From positions 1,178,001-1,242,000 of the forward strand of contig NW_004457723.1 of NCBI RefSeq assembly GCF_000203815.1: a stretch of 64,000 nt of DNA, given 5' to 3'. Both the position numbers and the translations under genes were made by a program. Numbering within the stretch: the first letter of the stretch is position 1; the number at the start of each line of letters is the position of its first letter. Under the pieces are notes generated by a model. It worked only from the letters and a program-made list of their open reading frames with translations, searched no databases and was not told the origin of the DNA. Shown here in pieces: positions 17,904 to 59,179 of the stretch. The DNA is from Cavenderia fasciculata (lineage: Eukaryota; Evosea; Eumycetozoa; Acytosteliales; Cavenderiaceae).

Positions 17904-20446
17904 TTAGAAATCTTTTAAATTTTTACAAATGGTACAACCAAGAGGAACTTCTTCAAGATGAGGATGATCAATTTTAAGAGGACAATGTTCTTTACCTGGA
18001 CACTTTGGAATCTCCTCAATTGGTTTTTTGGTTAGATAATCTCCACCTTGTTGTTTTTTGTGACAATCATCACAGAATCTAATTTTACTCCAACATACCC
18101 AACTTGCCTAAAACAAAAATAAATAATGGATTAATATTAATATTTCTTCTTTGTTTCTTTTTGTTTCTTTTTTTTTGTTTTTTTTACTTTACTTTTGAAC
18201 AACAATAATGACATTTAAATTCCATATATTCAACACCATGAACAGTACATGTTGAACCAGTTGTAGTAGGTCTACAATTTTCACATAATAATTCGTCTAG
18301 TTTGTAGGTATCTATACCTTGATCACAACGAACCATACCTGCGAAATAGGGTGATTTACATTTGTAACAAGGATAATATTGGTATCTATCCATTGCAAAG
18401 CCTTCGGGGTTCTTGTACCATTTGGATGTTTTGATCTCTAGTTCTTTGCTACGTTGGAGTCCTTCATAGACGAGTCGCTGTGTGGCCTTGGCTTTGACGA
18501 GATCCAGCAATTGTAAATGTGGTTTCATTAAAAGTTCGAGTGCAGGGTGTTTCATTTGTTTGTTGCAGAGGGGACAATCGAGGTGTTGGAATGTGAGACG
18601 TGGTTGAGCCGTTCTTTGAAGGTCGGGTGCATTCAACCTGCTCTCAACACACGTATAATGAAATACATGCCCACATCCTGTGAGCATGATACAAGGTGCC
18701 GCCGACAATGTCTCTGACCAACAGATATTACAAAAGTCGCTGGCCGATGCCATTGGAATTGGTAGTGGTGGCGATGATAAAGAGTTTCGTTTGGTTGAAA
18801 TAAGGTCTGCCTTGCTCTTGTCTATACACTTTTGCTTGAGACATGGCAAACATCTTTCTTCACCAGCGACACCCATGCAACGATGACCACATGGATGCAC
18901 CTGTTTGAAACATGCCAATCGACTCTTTTGCTGACACTCTTCCTCTAGACACACATCTTTGGTGTGAGTTTCGCTCACGTTGCTGTTTGGTATCACCTCT
19001 TTACAATATCTACATTTCTTGGACACCAAATACAATCGATGTGATTGGCATGTAAACCCATAATGATAGGGTGTTGATTTACAATCTGAACAAAACTCTG
19101 TCGAACATTTTGTACAACGAAATCTAAATTCATCTCTATGTAATGCTGCTTCTTCTTTCATCTTTTTTCCATCTGGTGACATTAAATTTAATTTTCTATT
19201 CATAGGTTGCTGCTGTTGTGGTTGTTGTGGTTGCATTCTTTCAAAAACTATATTACATGATGCATTTGGACATTTAAAATACCCAGGGTTTGATTCAAAT
19301 ACCAATTCTAATGTTTTGTTTAAATAAGTTTCATATTCATTTTTTGGTAATATTTCCTAAAAAATAAATAAATGTTAATGAATAGATCATATATATATAT
19401 TATATTTTATATTATTTACCTTTAAAACTAAATGAGATAATGATTGTGTACAATTTTTAACGGGACAAGTAATATTTAGTATACCATGTTGAATTTGATT
19501 TTTAAATCCAATTGTTAGACAATTGGTACAACAATTATGTAGACAATCATCCATTAGGTATAGACCCTGTCCAGAATTTGATCTTTTTCTACAAATGATA
19601 CAAATAAATAACATATCATTTTCATCAACCATCTGGTGATTGTTGTTATTGTTGCTATTATCATTATTGATTTGATTTGATGATGATTGATGTAAAACAT
19701 TTAATTGATCAATACCAACATCTTGAAATACTATTTGATCATTATCTCCATTCCTATTGTTATTGTTACTAAAACGGTCCAAAGTTTTTGATAATTCATG
19801 AAAAGTAACCTCTCGATAGTTACAATTTTGATCAAATATGACCCAATTGTCTAATGGTAGATCGTCGATTGGTTTCTTTTGTTTGATAGAGAGATGTAAC
19901 TCTCCTCCTCCCTTTGTTGTATCCTTTCCATCTTTGGTTACTAGAGGCAACCATGTATCGTATACCAGTGTTGATGATGTAGGTACACCAATCTTGTTTA
20001 CATCCAACACTATCGATCCAATGAAATTGTCTGTTAAAAAGAATACCTCTTTATCCCATACTGTAAATGTTAATGAATGTTCTTGGCTATTATTATCTAA
20101 TTTTCTAAAAGTGACAGAGAGAAAGAAAATGAGTTTAAACATATTTAAAGTTGATAATTATCTATCTATCTATCTATCTATCAATCTTACATATCAAAAC
20201 GATCATCCCAAAATGGAGTAGTTGTATTCTTTACAACCTTTGTTGAATGAGAAAGTTTGTTACTATTATTGTATCTAACCTCTACATAGGGATCATATTT
20301 TCCTGATTCTTTCTTTTTTAATCCTTTTGCTTCAATAACTATAGTATTGTATATGATTTAAATGTTAATATTATCTACATACATATATTTATATAATGAT
20401 GAAGAAGAAGAAACATACTTGAAACGGATATGGTGAGGTCAACCAT
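17904..20446 (-). CDS. C2 / RING1-IBR / RING-Cys-relay composite E3 ubiquitin ligase
   Basis: Exons 20446-20419, 20338-20191, 20104-19420, 19356-18193 and 18107-17904 join in frame to 742 residues. Order: a C2 domain (about 2-140; DPYVEVRYN, TPFWDDRF, VWDKEVFF); an RBR-type RING1 (about 227-277; CIICRK, DDCLHNCCTNC, CPVKNC); an IBR (about 316-390; CPNASC, FRCTKCSTEFCSDC, HYGFTC); a Cys/His region with HPCGHRC (about 402-464); then a RING-H2 (496-551; CNICWSETLSAAPC). The last ~190 residues (YEGLQRSKE, YYPCYKCKSPYFAG, FKCHYCCS, FCDDCH, CPLKIDHPH, LGCTICKN) match, by recall, the tandem-cysteine end of MYCBP2/PHR, the RING-Cys-relay ligase that esterifies Thr/Ser. An RBR RING2 is absent. The E3 activity and membrane recruitment by C2 are inferred. 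Confidence 0.82.
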
Positions 20447-21504
20447 TTTCTTTCTTTAAATCATACTACTACTGACTGTAACACTCTACTCTCTCTCTAC
20501 TATCTCTCTCTCTCTCACTACTTTGTCTAATAAAGTAATATAATATAATGGGTATGATGATATATATGTACACATAAAGTAAAGTATATCCGATGGTGTA
20601 TGTGTGGTTGGTGAATAGTAGCTTTAAAGCAGAAACATGTTGACTTTGGTTCACCAAAGCAATACAGGCTTCCACAGATTTAATTTTAAAAAAAGAATGT
20701 TTTTTTCCCGAAAACCTAGTACCACAGTTGTGGTATTATTGGTTGGTCATTCCATCTATATCTTGAAACAAAGATCTTCCTCCTCCTCCTTGCCTGGTTG
20801 ATCAATTCAATCAATAATTCAAATACCTTCCAAACTTTTTCATACAACAAGAATACATACTATCACAATGACCTGAAATTATATATTTCGGTCCCAAATA
20901 TTTAAAACAATCCAGGCACTGCATGACCACCGATACCTCTGCTCATCGACGAATTTCCCTCCCATTTTATAGTGGGCTACACCCATTTTTTTGGTTGAAC
21001 TCTCAAATCCCTTTTTTTTAGCACACATCCTCTTGGCAGCATAAACAATCATTCACCTTTCTTTTTGATACTCTTAAACGTTATATGACCAACTCATATA
21101 AATATGAATATATAGAAATATAATTACGGCATATATTACCAGACCCGTATTTATACAAAATAAATACTCCTTCAAGAAATATAAATATAAATACGGGAAG
21201 TCTCAAATCCCTGCCCTCTCCCTTTTTTTCTGCATGCCCTTTTTTCCCTTTTTTCTGCCCTGTCCCTTTTTTATCCATCGTCCCATTACTTTGTATAGAT
21301 ACATGATAAGCACATATTTATATAAAATCAATTATCTTTATTTCTTGGCCCCTTTTTTCTGCTCTTCATTATTTTCTAGATCCCTTTTTTCTGCCCTCTC
21401 CCTTTTTTCAGCACGAGTGCTCCCACTCAAAATGAGTCTTTGGATTCTATTTTTTTTTCTAGTAAACATATACATATATATACATGTAGATATATTATCT
21501 ATAG
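20447..21504. promoter_or_regulatory. divergent upstream region with clustered CCCTTTTTT motifs
   Basis: About 1.06 kb between the E3 ligase (-) and an ankyrin-like gene (+). From about 21000 to 21415 the motif CCCTTTTTT, often followed by CTGC or CTGCCCT, recurs at least six times (near 21010, 21220, 21247, 21264, 21351, 21381 and 21399). The two flanks share TCTCAAATCCC (near 21001 and 21201). No coding potential was found; the open frame on the minus strand at 21081-21278 is a by-product of the repeats. It may be a promoter array or decayed repeats. Confidence 0.4.
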
Positions 21505-31175: not shown

Positions 31176-31781
31176 TTAGATCAATTTCTTATTATTTTCA
31201 TCATTATATTTTCTCCAAAAAACAAAACCAAAGATAAAGATTGCTTGAACAAACAAGAAATAAGCCCAGAAACCAAAAGAAGTTTGTTTTTCAATGGTGT
31301 AGGTGAGTTCGTTGGCGTTCATTTCAAGGTTGGAAGCAATCTTTTGGGTATCACGTTGAGTGCTATCGAGGATACGACGGAGTCCGTTTAGGTTTTGGGT
31401 GAGTGATTCGAGTTGTTTGTTGGTGTCTTGATCTTGATTGTTGAGACGTTTGTTGACAATGGCCTTCATATCATTGATCGATCCCTTTAATTCGTTAAAG
31501 TCCTTTAAAAAGTTGTTTTGCTTTTGATCATAAGAGTTTTTAAAGTCGTTAAACTCCTTTTTGGTCATGGCAGTGCCGGCCAACGATACCAAAGCTTGTC
31601 CAATGTTGTTGACTTGATCACGGAGACCATCTACTGATTTTTTGGTTTCATCTTCATCCAATTGTGAGTGTAGGTGGTTAAGTGATTCCTTTAATGATTC
31701 AACCTTTGTAATAAGGTATGGTAATTGTTCATCTCTTGGAATATCTTTGGCTGAAACTGTTGATTGTTGTTGTTGATTCAT

Positions 31782-31825
<44 letters not shown>

Positions 31826-32915
31826 GAGTAGCTTGTTGTTGTTGTTGTTGATAATAATTATTACTTTCTTGTTGTTGAGCTTGTTGAAGTTTTAAAGCCA
31901 AATCATTGATTTGTTGTTGTAATTCATCTTGAGTTTGAGTTGGTTTTTCTCCATTATTATTACCACCCCAACTATCCTTTTGCTGTTGTTGTTGTTGTTG
32001 AGCTTCTTCTTCATCTTTAATTCTTTGTTGATGTTGTTGGAGTTGTTGTTTTTGATGTTGTTGTTGTTGTTCGTAAAAGTTGGCGGGTGGATCGAGCGAG
32101 TAGGTTTCGAGAGAGTAGACATCGTGGTTGTCGTGGAGACCACCGGTGGCGGCAGAGAGACCGAGGGTGAAGCCGGTGGGGATGGAGAGACGGAGGTCAG
32201 AGACACAGGCGTCAAACGAGCCAGACGAGTTGGGGTCGATTTGCACCGAGAGCACACCGTTAAAGTATCTGATCTTGGCCTTGGCATTCTTGGTGGCACT
32301 TCTAAACTTGCTGGTGCAGCTGCCCAACTTCATGTTGAGACCGTCCTTGGTAGTGTCAAAGAATTGGTTGCCGTCGTTGTAGACAACGTTGACGAGTGGG
32401 TTGTCGCCGTTGGCATTGTTGTCAAACGTGTCAAACATGATGGCCAAACCCTTCCAGAGGTTACGTGCGCCGTACACCTCCTTTTCCTTTTCGGGGGTGA
32501 GTGGCTCGTTGTTGTGGCGACGGTCAATCAACCAAAAGGCAATACCGTCGGCACCCAAACGCGAGGGTCCGCCAATACGCATGTCGAGGACAACCTCCCA
32601 GTTGACAAACTCGAGGTTCTCAGTGTTCCAAATGCTGCCATGAATACCCTTCATGTCAGACGTCAAACGAATATAGTCTTCGGCAATGATGGCATCACCG
32701 TAAATGTCCCAATACAAAATACCAGACGACGTGGGCATGAATGGTGACTTGAACGAATGACGATCCTCTCGACGGATAACCATCGGCTGTCCACCATTGT
32801 TATATTGTTGTTGGTTGTTGTAGTTGTTGTTGTTGCCAAAGTATGCATTGGCCGATGATTGCATAAATGCCACCAATGTGATTGAAACAATCAAAAGTGA
32901 ATAAATGAATCTCAT
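31176..32915 (-). CDS. ERGIC-53/LMAN1-like L-type lectin
   Basis: Single exon, 579 residues. A signal peptide (1-24, ending SSANA) precedes an L-type lectin domain of about 230 residues (HSFKSPFMP, WEVVLDMRIGG, GADGIAFWL, GLAIMFDTFDNN, GFTLGLSAATGG). Then come a Q-rich stretch, a long coiled coil and one transmembrane helix (FWAYFLFVQAIFIFGFVFW). The cytosolic tail ends KKLI, a dilysine KKxx ER-retrieval signal. This is the layout of ERGIC-53, the cargo receptor cycling between ER and Golgi. LI replaces the FF of the animal protein at the last two positions. The polyQ insert (CAG/CAA run near 31755-31850) is a dictyostelid feature. Confidence 0.93.
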
Positions 32916-44232: not shown

Positions 44233-45221
44233 GATGACGATGATGTATGTCTAGTCTAGTATTTATACAATGATAATAGAGTCTATCTATCTATCTTTCT
44301 ATCTTTCTAACTTATTGAATGTTGGTTGTATGAATATATTATTTTAATATTAAATAATATCTCTTTCTTTCTTTCTTATTCTTATTCTCTTTGTGTAAAT
44401 AAACCTTTACTAGCAACCTTAGTTGTTGTTGTTGTTGTTTGTTGAATGTATTAAAAAAAAAACAAAATCGTTGTTGACGTATAAATAATTATATATATTT
44501 GATATAAAAGAATGAAAAGGAATGCTCTAAAATCCTCTCTTTGTGTTGGTGTGTTGTTTTCTCTCTCCACCACAAATTTAATAATAATATTTTTTTCTAT
44601 CGCCTCAGGATTTTGCTTCCGTCAGACACGGGAAAGAAAGAAGCAAAGGAAACTTAGACTCAGACCACACAATAATAATAATAATAACAATAATGTGTGA
44701 TGATGATTATGATGATGATAGGAGATATTTATTATTATCAATTTAAAAATTATTATTATTTATTTTTGAATCTTGTTTGTTCTCGTTCCTCCTATCCTAT
44801 CACAGTTCACTTTTTAAAACAAAGAGTACTCATTAGCTTGTGTATTTTATATTATAAATTTATAATATTATAATGAAGAGAGAGAGAAGAGAGAGTTGGA
44901 TCGAGTTTGTTGTTTGCTGTTAAGAGATCTCTCATATTAATTAAAAAATAAATTAAAATTAATTATTATTTCAACGATTCAGCGTATCGATTTTCATTGA
45001 ACATACCTCATACAATATTCAACAACACATACTCTGTATTTATTTATATCTTTTTTTACCCAAGTACTATATATATCCTCCTCTTGCCTATCTTTTGTAA
45101 AGAACTAAAACAACTATATAAGAAATAAGAAGATCGTCCTCTCCTCTTATTTGATTGATAAATAGATCTATTGAAATAAACAATAATAATAATAATAACA
45201 ACAAACAAAGATTGAACAACC
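44233..45221. promoter_or_regulatory. divergent upstream region, ATG8 / coiled-coil protein
   Basis: Nearly 1 kb. An ATG-started frame at 44512-44700 (62 codons, hydrophobic start then basic and polyN) is not convincing. AT palindromes near 44850-44872, GA repeats near 44878-44896 and TAA runs near 45182-45198 were seen. Presumed promoters of both genes. Confidence 0.4.
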
Positions 45222-47078
45222 ATGAGTACACATTCATCATCGTCCTCATCTTCCTCGTCGTCATCGAGTCATAGTAGAAAGGAGAGTGGTGGTGGTAGTA
45301 GTAGTGGTAGTGGAATAGGCAGTAGTGGAGTATCAAGAACTACTACTGGTACATCATCAACATCAACGGGGTCAGGTGTATTCAAGAGACCGACCAGTAC
45401 GCTATCAAAAGGTTCAACACTCAAACCTACAACTAGTAGTAGTAGTGGTAGTTTAACAAAGGATGCATCTTCTTCAACTCCATCCAAGAATCCATTGTTG
45501 GCAGCTGCCTCTTCATCATCGTCACTATCTAAAACATTCCCGGGACCTAAAAAGACATCTACTACCGGTGTGACTGGTACTAGCTCTACATCAAAGGATA
45601 CATCTGATGGTACAACATCAACAACATCAATCAAACCAACTGATTCTTCTTCTTCTACATCTTCATCATCTTTGACAAGACCTACTGCATCTACATCTAC
45701 ATCTAAAACACCAATTTCATCATTGACAAGGAACAAATCAACCATTACCAAACCAACAACATCTACAACATCAACATCATCAAAATCGACGGATACGACA
45801 CCAGTTTCATCGTTAACCAAATCAAAGTCTGATTTATCAGGTGTAATGGCAGGAAAGTCTTCATCGACATCATCAACTATTGGAGGACGTACATTACCTT
45901 CATCTTCAATAACTACACCATCAAAGTTGACAACATCCAAATCTTCATTGTCATCGACAGCAACCAAACCATTGTCATTGTCATCTGGATCTATTCCTCC
46001 TCCAATATCCAACAAACCACCCATAACAACAACACAACACAGTGCAAGTGCATCAAATACACCTAAAACAGAATCTCCTGCATCTGCATCACCTGTATTA
46101 TCATCTGTACAATCCAACTCTACATCTACAACTTCTACAACATCAACCTCTTCATCTAATCCATCAACTACTTCAACTATATCATCATTATCTAAACCAG
46201 CACCAAGTCCAATAAAGAGACCTGCTGGATCATCATTATACTCTTCAGGAGGAAGATCAACATCTATTAGTAGTCCACTCAGACCGTCATTGGGAAGTGG
46301 TAGAACACCAACTTCAACATCGGCATCGACTAGTTCGTCATCTAGAGTAACCGACTCTTCTATTCGTGGAGACCCAGCTCAACTACGAGAGAGTATTCGT
46401 GCACTCCAAAGAGAACGTGAAGAATTGATGAACAAGTTGACAGATCTAACCAACAAGTCCAACGAAAGAGACACCTTTATCAAAAATCTCAATGGTCAAT
46501 TGGAAAAACTCAAACTTGATCTCAAGACTGTCACTCATGAACGTGATACTCACAAATCAAGAGCAACAAAATTGGAACAAGAAAAGAGATCATTGGAAGA
46601 GGAAGAGACTGACAAGTTGAAACAACGTGTTGAAGAGAGTGAAGCCAAGGCAGAGTTTATGAATGAAAGATTTGCACACTTGCTCACTCGTTATCAAGGT
46701 ACATTGACAGGTGTCGAACAAAAGATACAATCATACAAATCAGTTTTGGAACAATCCAAACAAGAATATGAAGAAGCAGATAAACTAAGAATCCTATTTG
46801 AAGATAACCTCAAACTAAAAGAAAAGGAAAATACATTATTAAAAGTTGAAATGGAATCTATAAAAAATCATAATCAACAATTATTAAGTGATAAATTAAT
46901 GAATGCATCAAATATTAGTAAAACTTCAAATGGACTAGACCAACAAGCACCTATTCCAATCATTACAACAACAACATCAAAACCAATACCTACACCAAAT
47001 CAATCATCAACATCACCAAATTTATCAACAGCAAGTAATGCACCTCCATCACCAAAAAAGATATTTGGTATTTTCTAA
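45222..47078 (+). CDS. Ser/Thr-rich protein with C-terminal coiled coil
   Basis: Single exon, 618 residues. Residues 1-380 are almost pure Ser, Thr, Lys, Pro and Gly with SP/TP sites, basic, and certainly disordered. Residues about 385-570 are a long coiled coil (QLRESIRALQREREELMNKL onward, ALL... heptads through KLKEKENTLLKVEMESIKN). The end is again disordered and closes with PSPKKIFGIF. A basic S/T/P-rich part next to a coiled coil is typical of microtubule-associated proteins, but no CAP-Gly or other named domain is present. Role unknown. Confidence 0.75.
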   Translation: MSTHSSSSSSSSSSSSHSRKESGGGSSSGSGIGSSGVSRTTTGTSSTSTGSGVFKRPTSTLSKGSTLKPTTSSSSGSLTKDASSSTPSKNPLLAAASSSSSLSKTFPGPKKTSTTGVTGTSSTSKDTSDGTTSTTSIKPTDSSSSTSSSSLTRPTASTSTSKTPISSLTRNKSTITKPTTSTTSTSSKSTDTTPVSSLTKSKSDLSGVMAGKSSSTSSTIGGRTLPSSSITTPSKLTTSKSSLSSTATKPLSLSSGSIPPPISNKPPITTTQHSASASNTPKTESPASASPVLSSVQSNSTSTTSTTSTSSSNPSTTSTISSLSKPAPSPIKRPAGSSLYSSGGRSTSISSPLRPSLGSGRTPTSTSASTSSSSRVTDSSIRGDPAQLRESIRALQREREELMNKLTDLTNKSNERDTFIKNLNGQLEKLKLDLKTVTHERDTHKSRATKLEQEKRSLEEEETDKLKQRVEESEAKAEFMNERFAHLLTRYQGTLTGVEQKIQSYKSVLEQSKQEYEEADKLRILFEDNLKLKEKENTLLKVEMESIKNHNQQLLSDKLMNASNISKTSNGLDQQAPIPIITTTTSKPIPTPNQSSTSPNLSTASNAPPSPKKIFGIF

Positions 47079-47287
47079 GACTATACTATAGGCAAACAAC
47101 AACGTTTAGAAAAGAAAAAAAGAAAAGAAAACAAAAAAAATATGTAAAATAAATCATTTTTAAAAAGATATTAAAAAAAATCAGATATTTGTTGGAACGA
47201 TGTTTAAACGAATAAAGACAACCCTTCCTTTCATCTTTTGTATCTCTTTCTCTAGTTCTTCTTTCTCTTTGTTTAGATATAGGAAAA

Positions 47288-49351
47288 ATGTCAATATTAG
47301 ATATACAAAGTATAATATTATATCAAATTATCAATAATGTAGAGAATGATATTGATATTATATGTTTATCATTGACTTGTAAAAAGTTATTCAATTTTGT
47401 GACGAATAGTGATCTTGGATCAAAGATTAGATTCACACAAATTAGAAGATTCACAATTGCTGAAAGATTTGCAAGTGTAAACATTCTAGTTGAAAGATTA
47501 GAGAGTTATCGTAACTTTAAATCATATACTAAACTTGTAAAGAATGGTCTATCTCATCAAAAGATTATTGATTTGGGTCAAGGTGACATGGACAAAGTAG
47601 AGGAAGAGCAACTTGACAACAACAACAACATTACAGAAGTATTAATCCTTGATAATGTATTTTCAAAGGTTATACCAACAACTTCAAGAATCATTTATAA
47701 TAGTAGAGGATGGATGGGTGATCAATACCCTAGACATTATGGATTGGAAGAATTGACATTTAGTCATGCTGGTAATCTCAAACCCGGACAATTACCAGAA
47801 ACTCTAAAGAAGCTGTCAATTGGAAACGAGACTACATTGTTACCTGGATGTTTACCACAATCAATTGAATCATTTAGATTTGATTATGGTATAACTTATT
47901 CTTTTAATTCTGTGGCATTGGATATTACAACCCTTGCATTTGATACTTACCAAAGTCTCACTCGAATTAATATAGTCGGTGCAATTGCAAATATTGGTCT
48001 TAATAATCAACAACCCGTCTTTCCAAACAGTCTCAAATACCTCAACATTCAATTGGATAGTGGCAAGTTTGACGGCACTGCATTCCCTTCGAGTCTAGAG
48101 TCACTCACACTCTACTACAATATTGATGAGACGTCACCTGCTGTCACGGTCGATCTCAGACCACTCGTCCATTTAGATCGTCTAGATTTACAAATAGAGT
48201 ATACTCGTGACGAGCGGGAATTAGAGTGTTTCAAACTACCAGACAATATTACCAAACTTGTATTGTCGGTTGATTGCGATCTCCCACTCGGATTCATTCC
48301 ACCAAAAACACAAAAGTTACACGTTGAATTGGATTCTTCGGAGCGTCTTTTGACAAATGGACCACTCCCCCAATCACTTGTCAAGTGTTATATACCAGCT
48401 AGTCTAGATGTCATTTCATCATTACCATCGACTGTCACCAAATTAAGAATTACAGGTTCTGATATTCCCGTATTTGACTTGGGAATCATTCCATCAACTG
48501 TCAAAACACTAGAACTCAATGTAGAGGATATTACAGGTACACTGACAGACAGCGTAGAGACACTTTTTATCGGTCGATCTGATGGACGAGTAGAACCCTT
48601 TGACTATGAACTACCTAGACAATTAAAATCGCTCACCATCGATCCAGTCTCTAGCAAGCAATATGGTATACTACTCAAAAAGTTACCACCCACACTTGAA
48701 CAACTAAACTACTTTGCCACTCTCCAACCATCATCTATTGAATTACCATCAAATTCAAACTTGACAAAGCTCTCTATACTATTGTCAAACAATCAATCTC
48801 TATCATCCATCTTCCATGACCAAATCATTCCAAAATCAATTCAACAATTAAAAATTGAAACTGTTATAAATACTCTTTCAATTCAAGTTCCTGATGATGA
48901 AAATGATGAAGAAGAAGAAGAAGAGGAAATTGAACAAGAAGAAGAAATTGAAAAGGAAATTAAAGAATTGGAAATTAAAGAAAAAGAATTAGAAAAAGAA
49001 ATTAAAGAATTGGAAAAAGAAGAAGAAGAAGAAGAAGATAAAAAAGAAGAAGAAGAAGATGTTATAGAAGAAGAAGTAAATGAAAATGAAGAATTTGAAT
49101 ATAGTTACAAAATGCCAACATTCAAAATTCCATTAAATGATATTCTATTTGATTCGAATATTCAATTAATTACGATTTCTCATGATTCATTCCAATTTAA
49201 TTTTAGTATTAGAAGATTGGATGATCATACTGCTCTCGTAACTGAAATTCACTCATTGTATGGTGGTATTATTACCAATGATAATGTAACCTCATTATCT
49301 TTAATATTAAATAATGAAAATTTTTGTTATCCAACTTTATCAAAACAATAA
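47288..49351 (+). CDS. FNIP-repeat / F-box-like protein (copy 1)
   Basis: Single exon, 687 residues. The N-terminus (LDIQSIILYQIINNVENDID, then CLSLTCKKLF) is F-box-like, a family feature of dictyostelid FNIP proteins. The middle is weak FNIP-type LRR-like repeats with units such as IPSTVKTLELN, LPSTVTKLRI, FPSSLESLTL and LPETLKKLSI. Residues about 535-610 are an acidic, coiled, Glu/Lys-rich insert (EEEEEIEQEEEIEKEIKELE). Likely an SCF-type substrate receptor or scaffold, inferred only. This is the first of two related genes (the other at 50286); each is followed by a small secreted gene or its relic. Confidence 0.8.
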   Translation: MSILDIQSIILYQIINNVENDIDIICLSLTCKKLFNFVTNSDLGSKIRFTQIRRFTIAERFASVNILVERLESYRNFKSYTKLVKNGLSHQKIIDLGQGDMDKVEEEQLDNNNNITEVLILDNVFSKVIPTTSRIIYNSRGWMGDQYPRHYGLEELTFSHAGNLKPGQLPETLKKLSIGNETTLLPGCLPQSIESFRFDYGITYSFNSVALDITTLAFDTYQSLTRINIVGAIANIGLNNQQPVFPNSLKYLNIQLDSGKFDGTAFPSSLESLTLYYNIDETSPAVTVDLRPLVHLDRLDLQIEYTRDERELECFKLPDNITKLVLSVDCDLPLGFIPPKTQKLHVELDSSERLLTNGPLPQSLVKCYIPASLDVISSLPSTVTKLRITGSDIPVFDLGIIPSTVKTLELNVEDITGTLTDSVETLFIGRSDGRVEPFDYELPRQLKSLTIDPVSSKQYGILLKKLPPTLEQLNYFATLQPSSIELPSNSNLTKLSILLSNNQSLSSIFHDQIIPKSIQQLKIETVINTLSIQVPDDENDEEEEEEEIEQEEEIEKEIKELEIKEKELEKEIKELEKEEEEEEDKKEEEEDVIEEEVNENEEFEYSYKMPTFKIPLNDILFDSNIQLITISHDSFQFNFSIRRLDDHTALVTEIHSLYGGIITNDNVTSLSLILNNENFCYPTLSKQ

Positions 49352-50108: not shown

Positions 50109-50285
50109 ACAAACTAAATATTATTCCTATCAGAAAAAAGTAAATAAAAATGATTAATTAATTTCTTTACAAAAATATCATCATGATCTTTAGGATCATT
50201 TGTTTTTGTTGTTCTTCTCTTTTTTTGCAAAAATAATAATAATAATAATGCAACCAACACAAACAAATATAATATAGTAATAATA

Positions 50286-52364
50286 ATGAATAGTAGATCA
50301 ATAATAGAATTACCGCAATTAATAATAGATCAAATCATTGAATTAATAAAAGATGATATAGATTTAATATGTTTGTTGTTAACTTGCAAGAGATTACTAT
50401 CATTTAAGAAAAGATATAGTTTTAAAGAATTATGTAAAACTATACGACTTGACGAGAGTGACGTTGTTTCAAAGAGAACATTGTCAACAAGAACTTATCG
50501 ATGGGATGGAGAATACTTTGATGGTAACAAGATTGAAATTGAAAGAATAGCTAGATTCTATTCAACCATCATACATAGAATACACCAACAATTTAGTATG
50601 CCTTTATTTCAAGATTTGTTATTAAATGCATTGGACAAGTATTTGTTGATCAATGATCTCAATTCAATTGGAATGTCAGAGATGGGAGACGATCAACTTG
50701 GACTTCAACTACAATACATTGTCCATTTCAACAATCCCTTTTTAAAGAGAATATCAATTGATTTGTTTGGAAAGGTATTGGTTGAACGAATACACACTCT
50801 ATTCCTACCATCAAACTATCAATATTCATTGGATGGTTTGGATAAACTAGTTAATCTAAATACTTTGGTTATGACTAGTTTCAATAACAACAAACAAATT
50901 GAAAAAGATCAATTACCAAAATCACTCAAGAGGTTGTTCATTCGTAATCAAATGATAGATGGGTCATTTCAAGATGGAGCTCTTTATAAAGGATTAGAAG
51001 TATTTTCTTTTATTGGAGATACTATTTATTCTGATTTTAGATTTGGTCATCCTATTACTATACATACATTCCCAATGACACTACGTGTACTTTGTCTACC
51101 GTTATCGTTCAAGTATCCAACTGACCCTTTACAACCTGGGTTTGTACCACTACCAACTAGTCTAGAGGACTTGTGGTTAAGTACCATTCAACCAATTGCA
51201 ACTGAAACATTCCCATGTCCACATTTGAAACGACTATCAATTGTCTCTGGATCGATCGTCTTTTCAAATACCAGTGTCATATTGCCATCCGATATCGAGT
51301 ATCTCAGTTTAGAGTTTAATAGATGTCAAGATGTTTTACCTGGATTGATTCCACCTCGAGTCTGTCGGCTACATCTTAGACTGTTCAAAGTACCAATCTC
51401 TTCATTGACCATCCCATCATCAGTCACTCATTTATTCTTGCAAAATCAACAATCGAGAATACCCACCAACTACTTTATCTTTGGTCATCCAAACTGTCAA
51501 ATTAAATATCTAAAGATACAAGACTATAGCTTTGAAATCAATTCAAGTACATTGGCAGGATACAACAATAGGTCATTGGAAAAGTTGGATATTGGTAACG
51601 GTACTATAGATGAGTACAAAGCAATACAAGTTGGTTCAATACCTTGTAATGTAAAGACACTCATTCTAAGAAGATATCCAATAGAGATTGTGAGTGGGTT
51701 GATTCCACAGTCTGTACGTGACCTAAGATTACACAGTTACAACTTTAGTCTTGGCAAGATTGAATTCCCAAAACTATTGGAATCATTCTTTTCAACAACT
51801 GAACGGTCTAGACCATTTGATACGACAGGTCTCTTGGCGACCTCTGCCACTTCCCTACGTCGTCTCGAATTGGATAGGGAATTTCCAATGGATGTTAAAC
51901 CCGCCACATCAGGTATCATCATTAAAGATTTTAAGAATCTTGAACAATTACATTGTTGTGATATTACAACAGGGTTTAATAGTGATAATCTATCATCAAC
52001 TATTATAGATTATCAAATACCATATAATACTACGGTGACTGAATTATTCAAATCACACTCACAATACAATAATAATAATAATAATGGTAGAATACCAAAA
52101 CATATTAAACATATCACGTTAAAGAAATCAGTAGAGCAACTAACCGTTGGTGATATTGCCAATCTACACAGTTTCTCTATCTTGCACCATCCAGAGTTGT
52201 CGTCAATAGACATACGTATTCTGGATGATCATCACATACTGGTGTTTTCACAAACCACCAAAGAAGGAGGAGTACTTAGGTACACTGATCCCTCGGTATC
52301 AAATGTACCCATAGTCAACTATTTACCAAATCAAATCACCAAATTTATCTATTCTTTAGATTAA
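50286..52364 (+). CDS. FNIP-repeat / F-box-like protein (copy 2)
   Basis: Single exon, 692 residues, with the same plan as the gene at 47288. The F-box-like start reads IELPQLIIDQIIELIKDDID, then CLLLTCKRLL. LRR/FNIP-like repeats follow (FPMTLRVLCLPLSF, LPTSLEDLWLS, IPPRVCRLHLRLF, IPSSVTHLFLQ, IPCNVKTLILRRY). The frame is intact and lacks the acidic insert of copy 1. Expanded dictyostelid family; function unknown, likely ubiquitin ligase-linked. Confidence 0.8.
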   Translation: MNSRSIIELPQLIIDQIIELIKDDIDLICLLLTCKRLLSFKKRYSFKELCKTIRLDESDVVSKRTLSTRTYRWDGEYFDGNKIEIERIARFYSTIIHRIHQQFSMPLFQDLLLNALDKYLLINDLNSIGMSEMGDDQLGLQLQYIVHFNNPFLKRISIDLFGKVLVERIHTLFLPSNYQYSLDGLDKLVNLNTLVMTSFNNNKQIEKDQLPKSLKRLFIRNQMIDGSFQDGALYKGLEVFSFIGDTIYSDFRFGHPITIHTFPMTLRVLCLPLSFKYPTDPLQPGFVPLPTSLEDLWLSTIQPIATETFPCPHLKRLSIVSGSIVFSNTSVILPSDIEYLSLEFNRCQDVLPGLIPPRVCRLHLRLFKVPISSLTIPSSVTHLFLQNQQSRIPTNYFIFGHPNCQIKYLKIQDYSFEINSSTLAGYNNRSLEKLDIGNGTIDEYKAIQVGSIPCNVKTLILRRYPIEIVSGLIPQSVRDLRLHSYNFSLGKIEFPKLLESFFSTTERSRPFDTTGLLATSATSLRRLELDREFPMDVKPATSGIIIKDFKNLEQLHCCDITTGFNSDNLSSTIIDYQIPYNTTVTELFKSHSQYNNNNNNGRIPKHIKHITLKKSVEQLTVGDIANLHSFSILHHPELSSIDIRILDDHHILVFSQTTKEGGVLRYTDPSVSNVPIVNYLPNQITKFIYSLD

Positions 52365-57826: not shown

Positions 57827-59179
57827 TTATTCATTTACAGTTGAAGGTGGAGGAGGAGGAGGAGGGGAAGGTTGATGTTGAGAAAATGGTAAAAATCTTT
57901 TTGATGAAGAAATGATGGTATTACATTTTGGACAAATAAAAGATGAATCTATCATACAACTCGTCTTTATACAATAATAACAAAACAAATGTCCACAATC
58001 TGAAATGTATGGAATATTAATTGGATCTTGTAAACAAATAGGACATCTTTGAAGAACTTGTGGTGCCATTTGTTCTGGTGTTAATTGATTTGAAACAGCA
58101 TTAACATTTCCACCATTATTACCATTATTTCCACGTTGTAAAATATTTGATGGTTTTTGAATAAATGTTCTATAAATAAAATTTTTAATTTTGTCTATAT
58201 TTATCAATGGCATAATAAATAAAAAGAATTCCTAAAAATAAAATATAATCATAAAAAAGAGGTAAATATAAATGTACATTTTGTTGTTTTTAATTTCCCT
58301 TTCTTTCTTACAGTAAAACCATGCCAAACTAATTGTCTATTCATATATTCAAAAGAAATTCTTCTACTCAGAGATGGATGAGCATAAACTAGACGCATAC
58401 CAAGTAGACGATTGGCAAGTGTTACATATTTGCCATCATAGAGAAATGTAAGGAAATTGAGAACCGACAATATTTTATAGAGTGATTCCAAACGATTGAG
58501 CAAGTTCCAAATCTTTTTTTTAATATCACTGTCTGGACGTTCACCCCAAGCTTCATTGATTGATATTCTATTGATTCTAGCCCATGCCCATTCTCCACCG
58601 ATATTGATCAATCCAGATGCCCATTTTTGTCGCAATGTCAACTTTGTCAACGTATCTGACCCCTTTGATCGATCAAATGCAAATTCATTACGATAGGTAA
58701 GATTCTGTAATTGATTACCATATGTATTACCAAGATTGAATATAGAAAGTTTAAATATCGCTGCTTTTAATATTAAATTGATTTCAGGTTGAAATGTTTG
58801 TATAAATGTTGGCTAAATATAGAGATCATTAGTAAATTTGACGGTACTGTCTGTATAGATGTATCTATATGTATGTTTTACATACTTTAAAGAATGAAAA
58901 TATTTTCATAAACTGTGTCTTTAATAAATCGAGTATCTCTTCATCAAGTTTAACAGAGTCTAATTGACTGACACGAACTATACTAGTTGATGGTTTCCTA
59001 GATGCTGTAATAGTCTTTTGTAATTCTTTTAATTTATCAACTTCTGATTCATATTCTTTACTCCATGGTGCATCAATTCGACTATTAAATGTTGTTGTAG
59101 TTGTATTTGTAGTAGTAGCAGCAGCAGCAGTAGTAGTATTTAGTTTTGGTTGTTGTGTTGGTGGTTGTTGATTATTCAT
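57827..59179 (-). CDS. pex2: peroxisome biogenesis factor 2 (PEX2)
   Basis: Exons 59179-58886, 58812-58312 and 58231-57827 give 399 residues. It shows the Pex2/Pex10/Pex12 N-terminal domain (ISINEAWGE, LYDGKYVTLANRLLGMRLVY, SRRISFEYMNRQLVWHGFTEFFLFI, split by intron 2). The C-terminal RING is at about 328-368 (CPICLQDPINIPYISDCGHLFCYYC, first part, then CPKC). The VWHGFTEF join is diagnostic for PEX2. It acts in the peroxisomal membrane as part of the ubiquitin ligase that recycles the PEX5 receptor. The Thr-rich first 35 residues and the poly-Pro end are variable. Confidence 0.95.

Follow-up and report, generated by a model that had tools for sequence, protein, structure and literature searches.

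A compact Cavenderia fasciculata protein that joins a C2 domain and an RBR-type RING1-IBR to a predicted MYCBP2-like RING-Cys-relay ubiquitin ligase module

The window analysed here is a stretch of 64,000 nucleotides from Cavenderia fasciculata, and its minus strand carries a gene whose product reads, from the N to the C terminus, as a C2 domain, a RING1, an IBR, a Cys/His module, a RING-H2 of the RING-Cys-relay (RCR) type and the tandem-cysteine part of the relay (Table 1). Translation starts at an ATG at 20446 and ends at a stop codon at 17904-17906, and the five exons (20446-20419, 20338-20191, 20104-19420, 19356-18193 and 18107-17904) are separated by four short, AT-rich introns of 80, 86, 63 and 85 bases, all of them GT-AG. 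The spliced minus-strand model yields the same coordinates, the same 742 residues and the same four introns as the original prediction, and all five motifs quoted there are present in the translation; the Cys/His module, a second hybrid gene and a giant PHR-like gene are additions to that prediction. Elsewhere in the window lie a legume-like lectin family protein (31179-32915, minus strand, E 5.9e-55) and two adjoining FNIP-repeat proteins (47219-49348 and 50190-52361, plus strand), a kind of protein that is common in dictyostelids, and phrases like CCCTTTTTTCTGCC recur several times, as judged by eye, in the intergenic stretch 21190-21420. Together with a GC content of about 30-34% and the short, AT-rich introns, the FNIP-repeat proteins agree with a dictyostelid origin. 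A 619-residue frame (45219-47075, plus strand) gave a WXG100 match below the cut-off that is probably due to chance (E 6.7e-4), and a RING-H2-like stretch at 57920-58048 on the minus strand (E 2.5e-4) falls just below the Pfam cut-off, with 26.8 bits against 27.3.

Table 1. Positions of the hybrid gene, its domains and its relatives in the same genome
Feature	Residues	Position (in the window unless a locus is named)	Strand	Basis or content
Whole hybrid gene	742 aa	17904..20446	-	all introns GT-AG; reading frame intact up to a single stop at the end
C2 domain	5-113	19942..20434	-	Pfam PF00168, E 2.3e-21; spans introns 1 and 2
RBR-type RING1	227-277	19450..19602	-	own-genome RBR profile, pairwise hhalign
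IBR domain	297-390	19048..19329	-	Pfam PF01485, E 1.5e-9, 38.3 bits, cut-off 24.3
Cys/His (zinc-like) module	402-464	18826..19014	-	hhalign to giant PHR-like protein
RCR RING-H2	496-551	18565..18732	-	part of MYCBP2 match, E 8.2e-56
Tandem-cysteine part of RCR	617-742	17907..18369	-	6t7f/5o6c alignment; crosses intron 4
First relay cysteine (MYCBP2 C4520)	C631	18325..18327	-	alignment
Second relay cysteine (MYCBP2 C4572)	C680	18093..18095	-	alignment
Second RBR-fronted relay gene	830 aa	L009 2537-5383 (G000:C5)	-	splice model
Giant PHR-like gene		L008 (G000:C8:506500-515500), continuing into L030		PHR, APC10, Cys/His module, RCR

The exon structure bears directly on whether the two halves of this protein belong together. 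Exon 3 encodes the second half of the C2 domain and RING1, and everything from the IBR through the Cys/His module and the RCR RING up to the first relay cysteine is encoded by exon 4, so that only intron 3 (19419-19357) need be real for the halves to share one polypeptide, and the RBR/relay join is not an artefact of the gene model because one exon contains the IBR together with most of the relay module. Two separate genes, or a mis-joined gene model, is therefore an extremely improbable reading, and the exons of a paralogue on contig C5 also tell against it, since one of them runs from the end of RING1 into the first half of the IBR region and a second one links the remaining half with the Cys/His module. 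A two-gene artefact was ruled out on the ground that exon 4 by itself spans the IBR to the first relay cysteine.

At the back end, residues 491-741 match the human MYCBP2 RCR structures 6t7f (E 8.2e-56) and 5o6c (E 1.8e-55) and keep the relay cysteines; the identity is 43.2% across 243 positions of the alignment. The MYCBP2 cysteines are retained at 22 of 23 positions, C4417 being replaced by Val, and its histidines at 6 of 11, and the five histidines lost also differ in the giant PHR-like protein; Pfam RING models matched the RCR RING below their cut-offs only. Intron 4 separates K675 from A676; once it is removed, the distance to C680 is the same as in MYCBP2. We take the second relay cysteine of MYCBP2 to be C4572, a numbering that fits because this cysteine follows the first by 52 residues in the PDB sequence, and we likewise assume that E4534 and H4583 are members of the MYCBP2 triad, for which the alignment gives E642 and H691. 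The hydrophobic Thr pocket of MYCBP2 is presumably formed by F4573 and F4578, of which the latter is kept as F686 and the former is replaced by W681, and the loop from the first relay cysteine to the triad Glu is three residues shorter (11 residues in both hybrids versus 14). Thus, the sequence features by which we recognize the RCR class, namely homology to the RING and to the tandem-cysteine part, two relay cysteines and the triad His and Glu, are all present in the window protein.

In the excerpts of the MYCBP2 literature considered here, ubiquitin passes from the RING-bound E2 to the first cysteine, from there to the second and finally into an ester with Thr or Ser, a Cys-His-Glu triad and a Thr pocket being described as well (PMC9527308), and C4520S MYCBP2 is termed catalytically inactive (PMC12664034). 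With both cysteines and the triad in place and one pocket residue changed, we infer that a MYCBP2-like path is the best reading of the window protein. The preference for Thr may not carry over, since the equivalent of F4573 is Trp, and W681 and the shorter loop, both common to the two hybrids, may have altered the choice of acceptor. The same two differences could be taken to indicate a plain RING ligase whose relay survives as a structural relic while the E2 transfers ubiquitin directly to lysine, but the retention of both relay cysteines, of the triad Glu and His and of nearly all cysteines (22 of 23) at 43% identity argues against this, and we consider it decidedly unlikely.

At the front end, the original prediction had recognized an RBR-type RING1-IBR in residues 227-390, and this assignment was borne out by an RBR profile built from six own-genome RBR genes and by the Pfam IBR model. 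RING1, with the ligand set C227, C230, C246, H248, C250/C251, C254, C272 and C277, is not itself matched by any Pfam RING model. When the RBR profile was searched against 1503 targets, including 1500 shuffled sequences, residues 227-330 of the window protein, from RING1 to the first IBR knuckle, scored 40.1 bits (E 2.6e-11) and the C5 paralogue was matched at E 1.2e-10; nothing else was found at E <= 1, neither in the giant PHR-like protein, of which 2207 residues were included, nor among the shuffles (0/1500), which rules out a chance zinc-finger similarity of the front end. Against the assignment, the second half of the window IBR scored -5.7 bits in this search; in a genome-wide scan with the IBR model, the IBR was recovered at the same place. 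In pairwise hhalign comparisons, the RBR profile and a profile of the two hybrids could be aligned over 152 columns (Prob 97.9, E 4.6e-13), profiles of the single sequences matched the RBR profile at E 7e-10 for the window protein and E 1e-9 for the paralogue, and the window RCR module gave Prob 4.6 and E 0.0088 in the same comparison. A single-sequence PDB search with RING1-IBR returned four matches (best E 0.25), none of them an RBR structure, which likewise tells against the assignment. In a genome search with the front half, the top places went to the window gene, the C5 paralogue and the giant PHR gene, followed by the RBR loci L014 (E 2.5e-4) and L018 (E 0.002) and then by another place at E 0.166.

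The RBR tests applied to the window protein were positive for RING1 and IBR and negative for RING2. A RING2 pattern and a RING2 profile, both made from the six own-genome RBR genes, recovered all six of the genes that made them and none of the three relay proteins (the window protein, its paralogue and the portion of the giant protein that was examined), and the profile background amounted to two of 600 shuffles, at E 1.4 and 2.2; with no RING2 match, no RING2 catalytic cysteine was found in the window protein. The number of IBR-model matches per gene was dropped as a test for RING2: the genome IBR scan gave 14 places, with two matches at nine and one match at five, and three of the five one-match places (L010, L016 and L024) carry the RING2 pattern.

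The original prediction had the RCR module taking the place of the RING2 expected after the IBR; the lack of a RING2 match and the presence of the RCR module agree with this, but a further module intervenes at residues 402-464. Its cysteine motifs are CRYC-CLEEEC-CGHRC-CLPCL, and it matches the segment of the giant protein just upstream of the RCR RING, with Prob 97.0 and E 1.2e-10 in pairwise hhalign and with 41% identity and E 2.0e-7 in the genome search. Neither this module nor the tandem-cysteine part was matched by a Pfam or NCBIfam model (NCBIfam gave nothing at E <= 0.1), and a PDB search with the stretch 364-486 gave one match, at E 1.5, which we took as chance. If the protein were an RBR ligase and the 402-464 module its RING2, changed past recognition, this would account for the meeting of CRYC (402-405) with the first RING2 knuckle in hhalign, but we regard this reading as very improbable, as neither the RING2 pattern nor the profile matches the module and as the giant PHR-like protein also has it, with no RING2 pattern, RING2 profile or RBR match in the part of that protein that was searched; on these grounds the module was ruled out as a RING2. 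Judged by sequence, the protein is of the RBR kind up to C390 and of the PHR kind from C402 onward. The claim that one protein unites an RBR front with an RCR back is upheld by these independent searches, and a second gene with this arrangement supports it as well.

We searched the genome (31.0 Mb, 21 contigs) with the RCR modules of the window protein and the giant protein as queries, and relay genes were found at three places, in the window (C7) and on C5 and C8, two of the three being RBR-fronted. The C5 protein has a RING1, an IBR-like region, the Cys/His module and the RCR, and at its N terminus, in place of the C2 domain, it has a C2HC-like finger, seen by eye and matching no zinc-finger family, and a long low-complexity stretch. 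Its RING1 matches Pfam zf-RING_5 (29.7 bits, cut-off 27.9). The IBR region has no Pfam IBR match at E <= 5 and is absent from the genome IBR scan, so its assignment is based on hhalign and on the alignment with the window protein; what Pfam shows at that place is an ANCHR-like B-box match below the threshold (E 0.016). The intron positions of the C5 gene differ from those of the window gene. The C5 hybrid retains the two relay cysteines as well as the Glu and His of the triad, is without an equivalent of C4614, and shares with the window protein the Trp at the F4573 position, where MYCBP2 and the giant PHR protein have Phe.

The giant C8 protein, with an open frame of 2969 residues, has a PHR domain (E 3.1e-31), which is the single match in a genome scan for that domain, and an APC10 domain (E 2.9e-5, above the cut-off), and this combination with the RCR module makes it a PHR/MYCBP2-type protein. 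Its triad Glu position is Asp, and a B-box-like stretch was seen by eye upstream. A quartet tree of the four RCR modules placed the two hybrids together as the best topology (RELL 0.776), with AU values of 0.217 and 0.164 for the alternatives, neither of which is rejected, and by this preference of the tree a single origin of the RBR-RCR fusion is favoured. Pattern scans found no relative among 8 and 84 matches in viral_contigs or among 215 matches in genome_contigs, this being viral and prokaryote sequence that says nothing on other eukaryotes, and orthologues may well lie unremarked in protein databases. In the open-access literature, the titles and abstract beginnings among the matches listed contained no RBR-RCR fusion and no amoebozoan RCR ligase.

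The PDB matches of the C2 region are synaptotagmin and PKC C2 domains and include SMURF1, SMURF2 and a NEDD4-like C2 domain. If the five Asp calcium-ligand positions are assigned from synaptotagmin, as we assume here, three of the five are Asp (D25, D76 and D84) and two are Glu (E20 and E78). The original prediction of a calcium/lipid-recruited enzyme loses strength here, because two of the five usual Asp ligands are Glu. The C2 domain suggests that the ligase is recruited to membranes.

Compared with known systems, the window protein has in common with MYCBP2, Highwire and RPM-1 (PHR) the RCR module as a whole, with its two relay cysteines and with the Glu and His of the triad; unlike MYCBP2, it has only 742 residues, no Pfam PHR (PF08005) or APC10 match and a C2 and RBR front instead, as well as Trp for one pocket Phe and the three-residue shorter loop. 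With RBR E3s of the Parkin and HHARI type it shares RING1 and IBR, but no RING2 was matched in it. An N-terminal C2 domain on a transthiolating ligase is also found in the C2-domain HECT ligases SMURF and NEDD4, whose catalytic domain is another one, and the window protein has no HECT or WW Pfam match. The module of the 402-464 type and the RCR are common to it and to the giant C8 protein, which differs in its PHR and APC10 domains, its length and its lack of an RBR match. These comparisons would place the window protein in the RCR class, and outside both the RBR class, for want of RING2, and the PHR proteins, for want of the PHR domain.

The gene probably encodes a 742-residue RCR-type transthiolating ubiquitin ligase whose relay is active and whose RING1-IBR is regulatory, and this ligase most likely esterifies hydroxyls. 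In the mechanism that we propose, the C2 domain would bring the enzyme to the membrane, the RCR RING would bind E2~ubiquitin, and ubiquitin would be passed to C631 and then to C680, from which it would be esterified to a hydroxyl (of Thr, Ser or similar), H691 and E642 serving as the base partners. In RBR ligases, RING1 is the binding site for E2~ubiquitin and the IBR region that for ubiquitin; given these binding roles and no RING2 for RBR catalysis, a feeding or gating role for RING1-IBR is likely. It would be non-catalytic, most likely binding ubiquitin or E2~ubiquitin and thereby regulating or feeding the relay. Alternatively, RING1-IBR might itself be the working E2 platform, taking up E2~ubiquitin in the manner of an RBR and handing ubiquitin to C631, the RCR RING being structural, as the kept RING1 ligand set, the RBR-type sequence that extends to the IBR and the retention of RING1-IBR in two hybrid genes would allow; however, the complete RCR RING aligns with the MYCBP2 RING, which works with an E2 according to an excerpt of PMC12664034, and the giant PHR-like protein has no detectable RING1-IBR in the 2207-residue part used in the profile search, so that we think this arrangement unlikely. 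Alongside the relay-active ligase with a regulatory RING1-IBR, we tentatively raise the possibility of an 'RBR-RCR' ligase subclass, in which RING1-IBR feeds or gates the relay and the N-terminal targeting domains (C2 in one hybrid, a C2HC-like finger in the other) are exchangeable.

The relay mechanism is best known from MYCBP2, a giant nerve-cell protein, and the parts of the literature covered here discuss it through MYCBP2. A compact natural relay ligase should be far easier than MYCBP2 to express and study, and a relay that shares its polypeptide with half of a second kind of transthiolating ligase, beside a PHR-type gene in one amoeba genome, would make it testable how the relay originated and whether or not ester ubiquitylation is a general eukaryotic signal. 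If the RBR-RCR subclass is true, the relay chemistry would be far older than neurons, two transthiolating classes would be linked, and membranes may be where the C2 form esterifies hydroxyls, perhaps not those of proteins alone.
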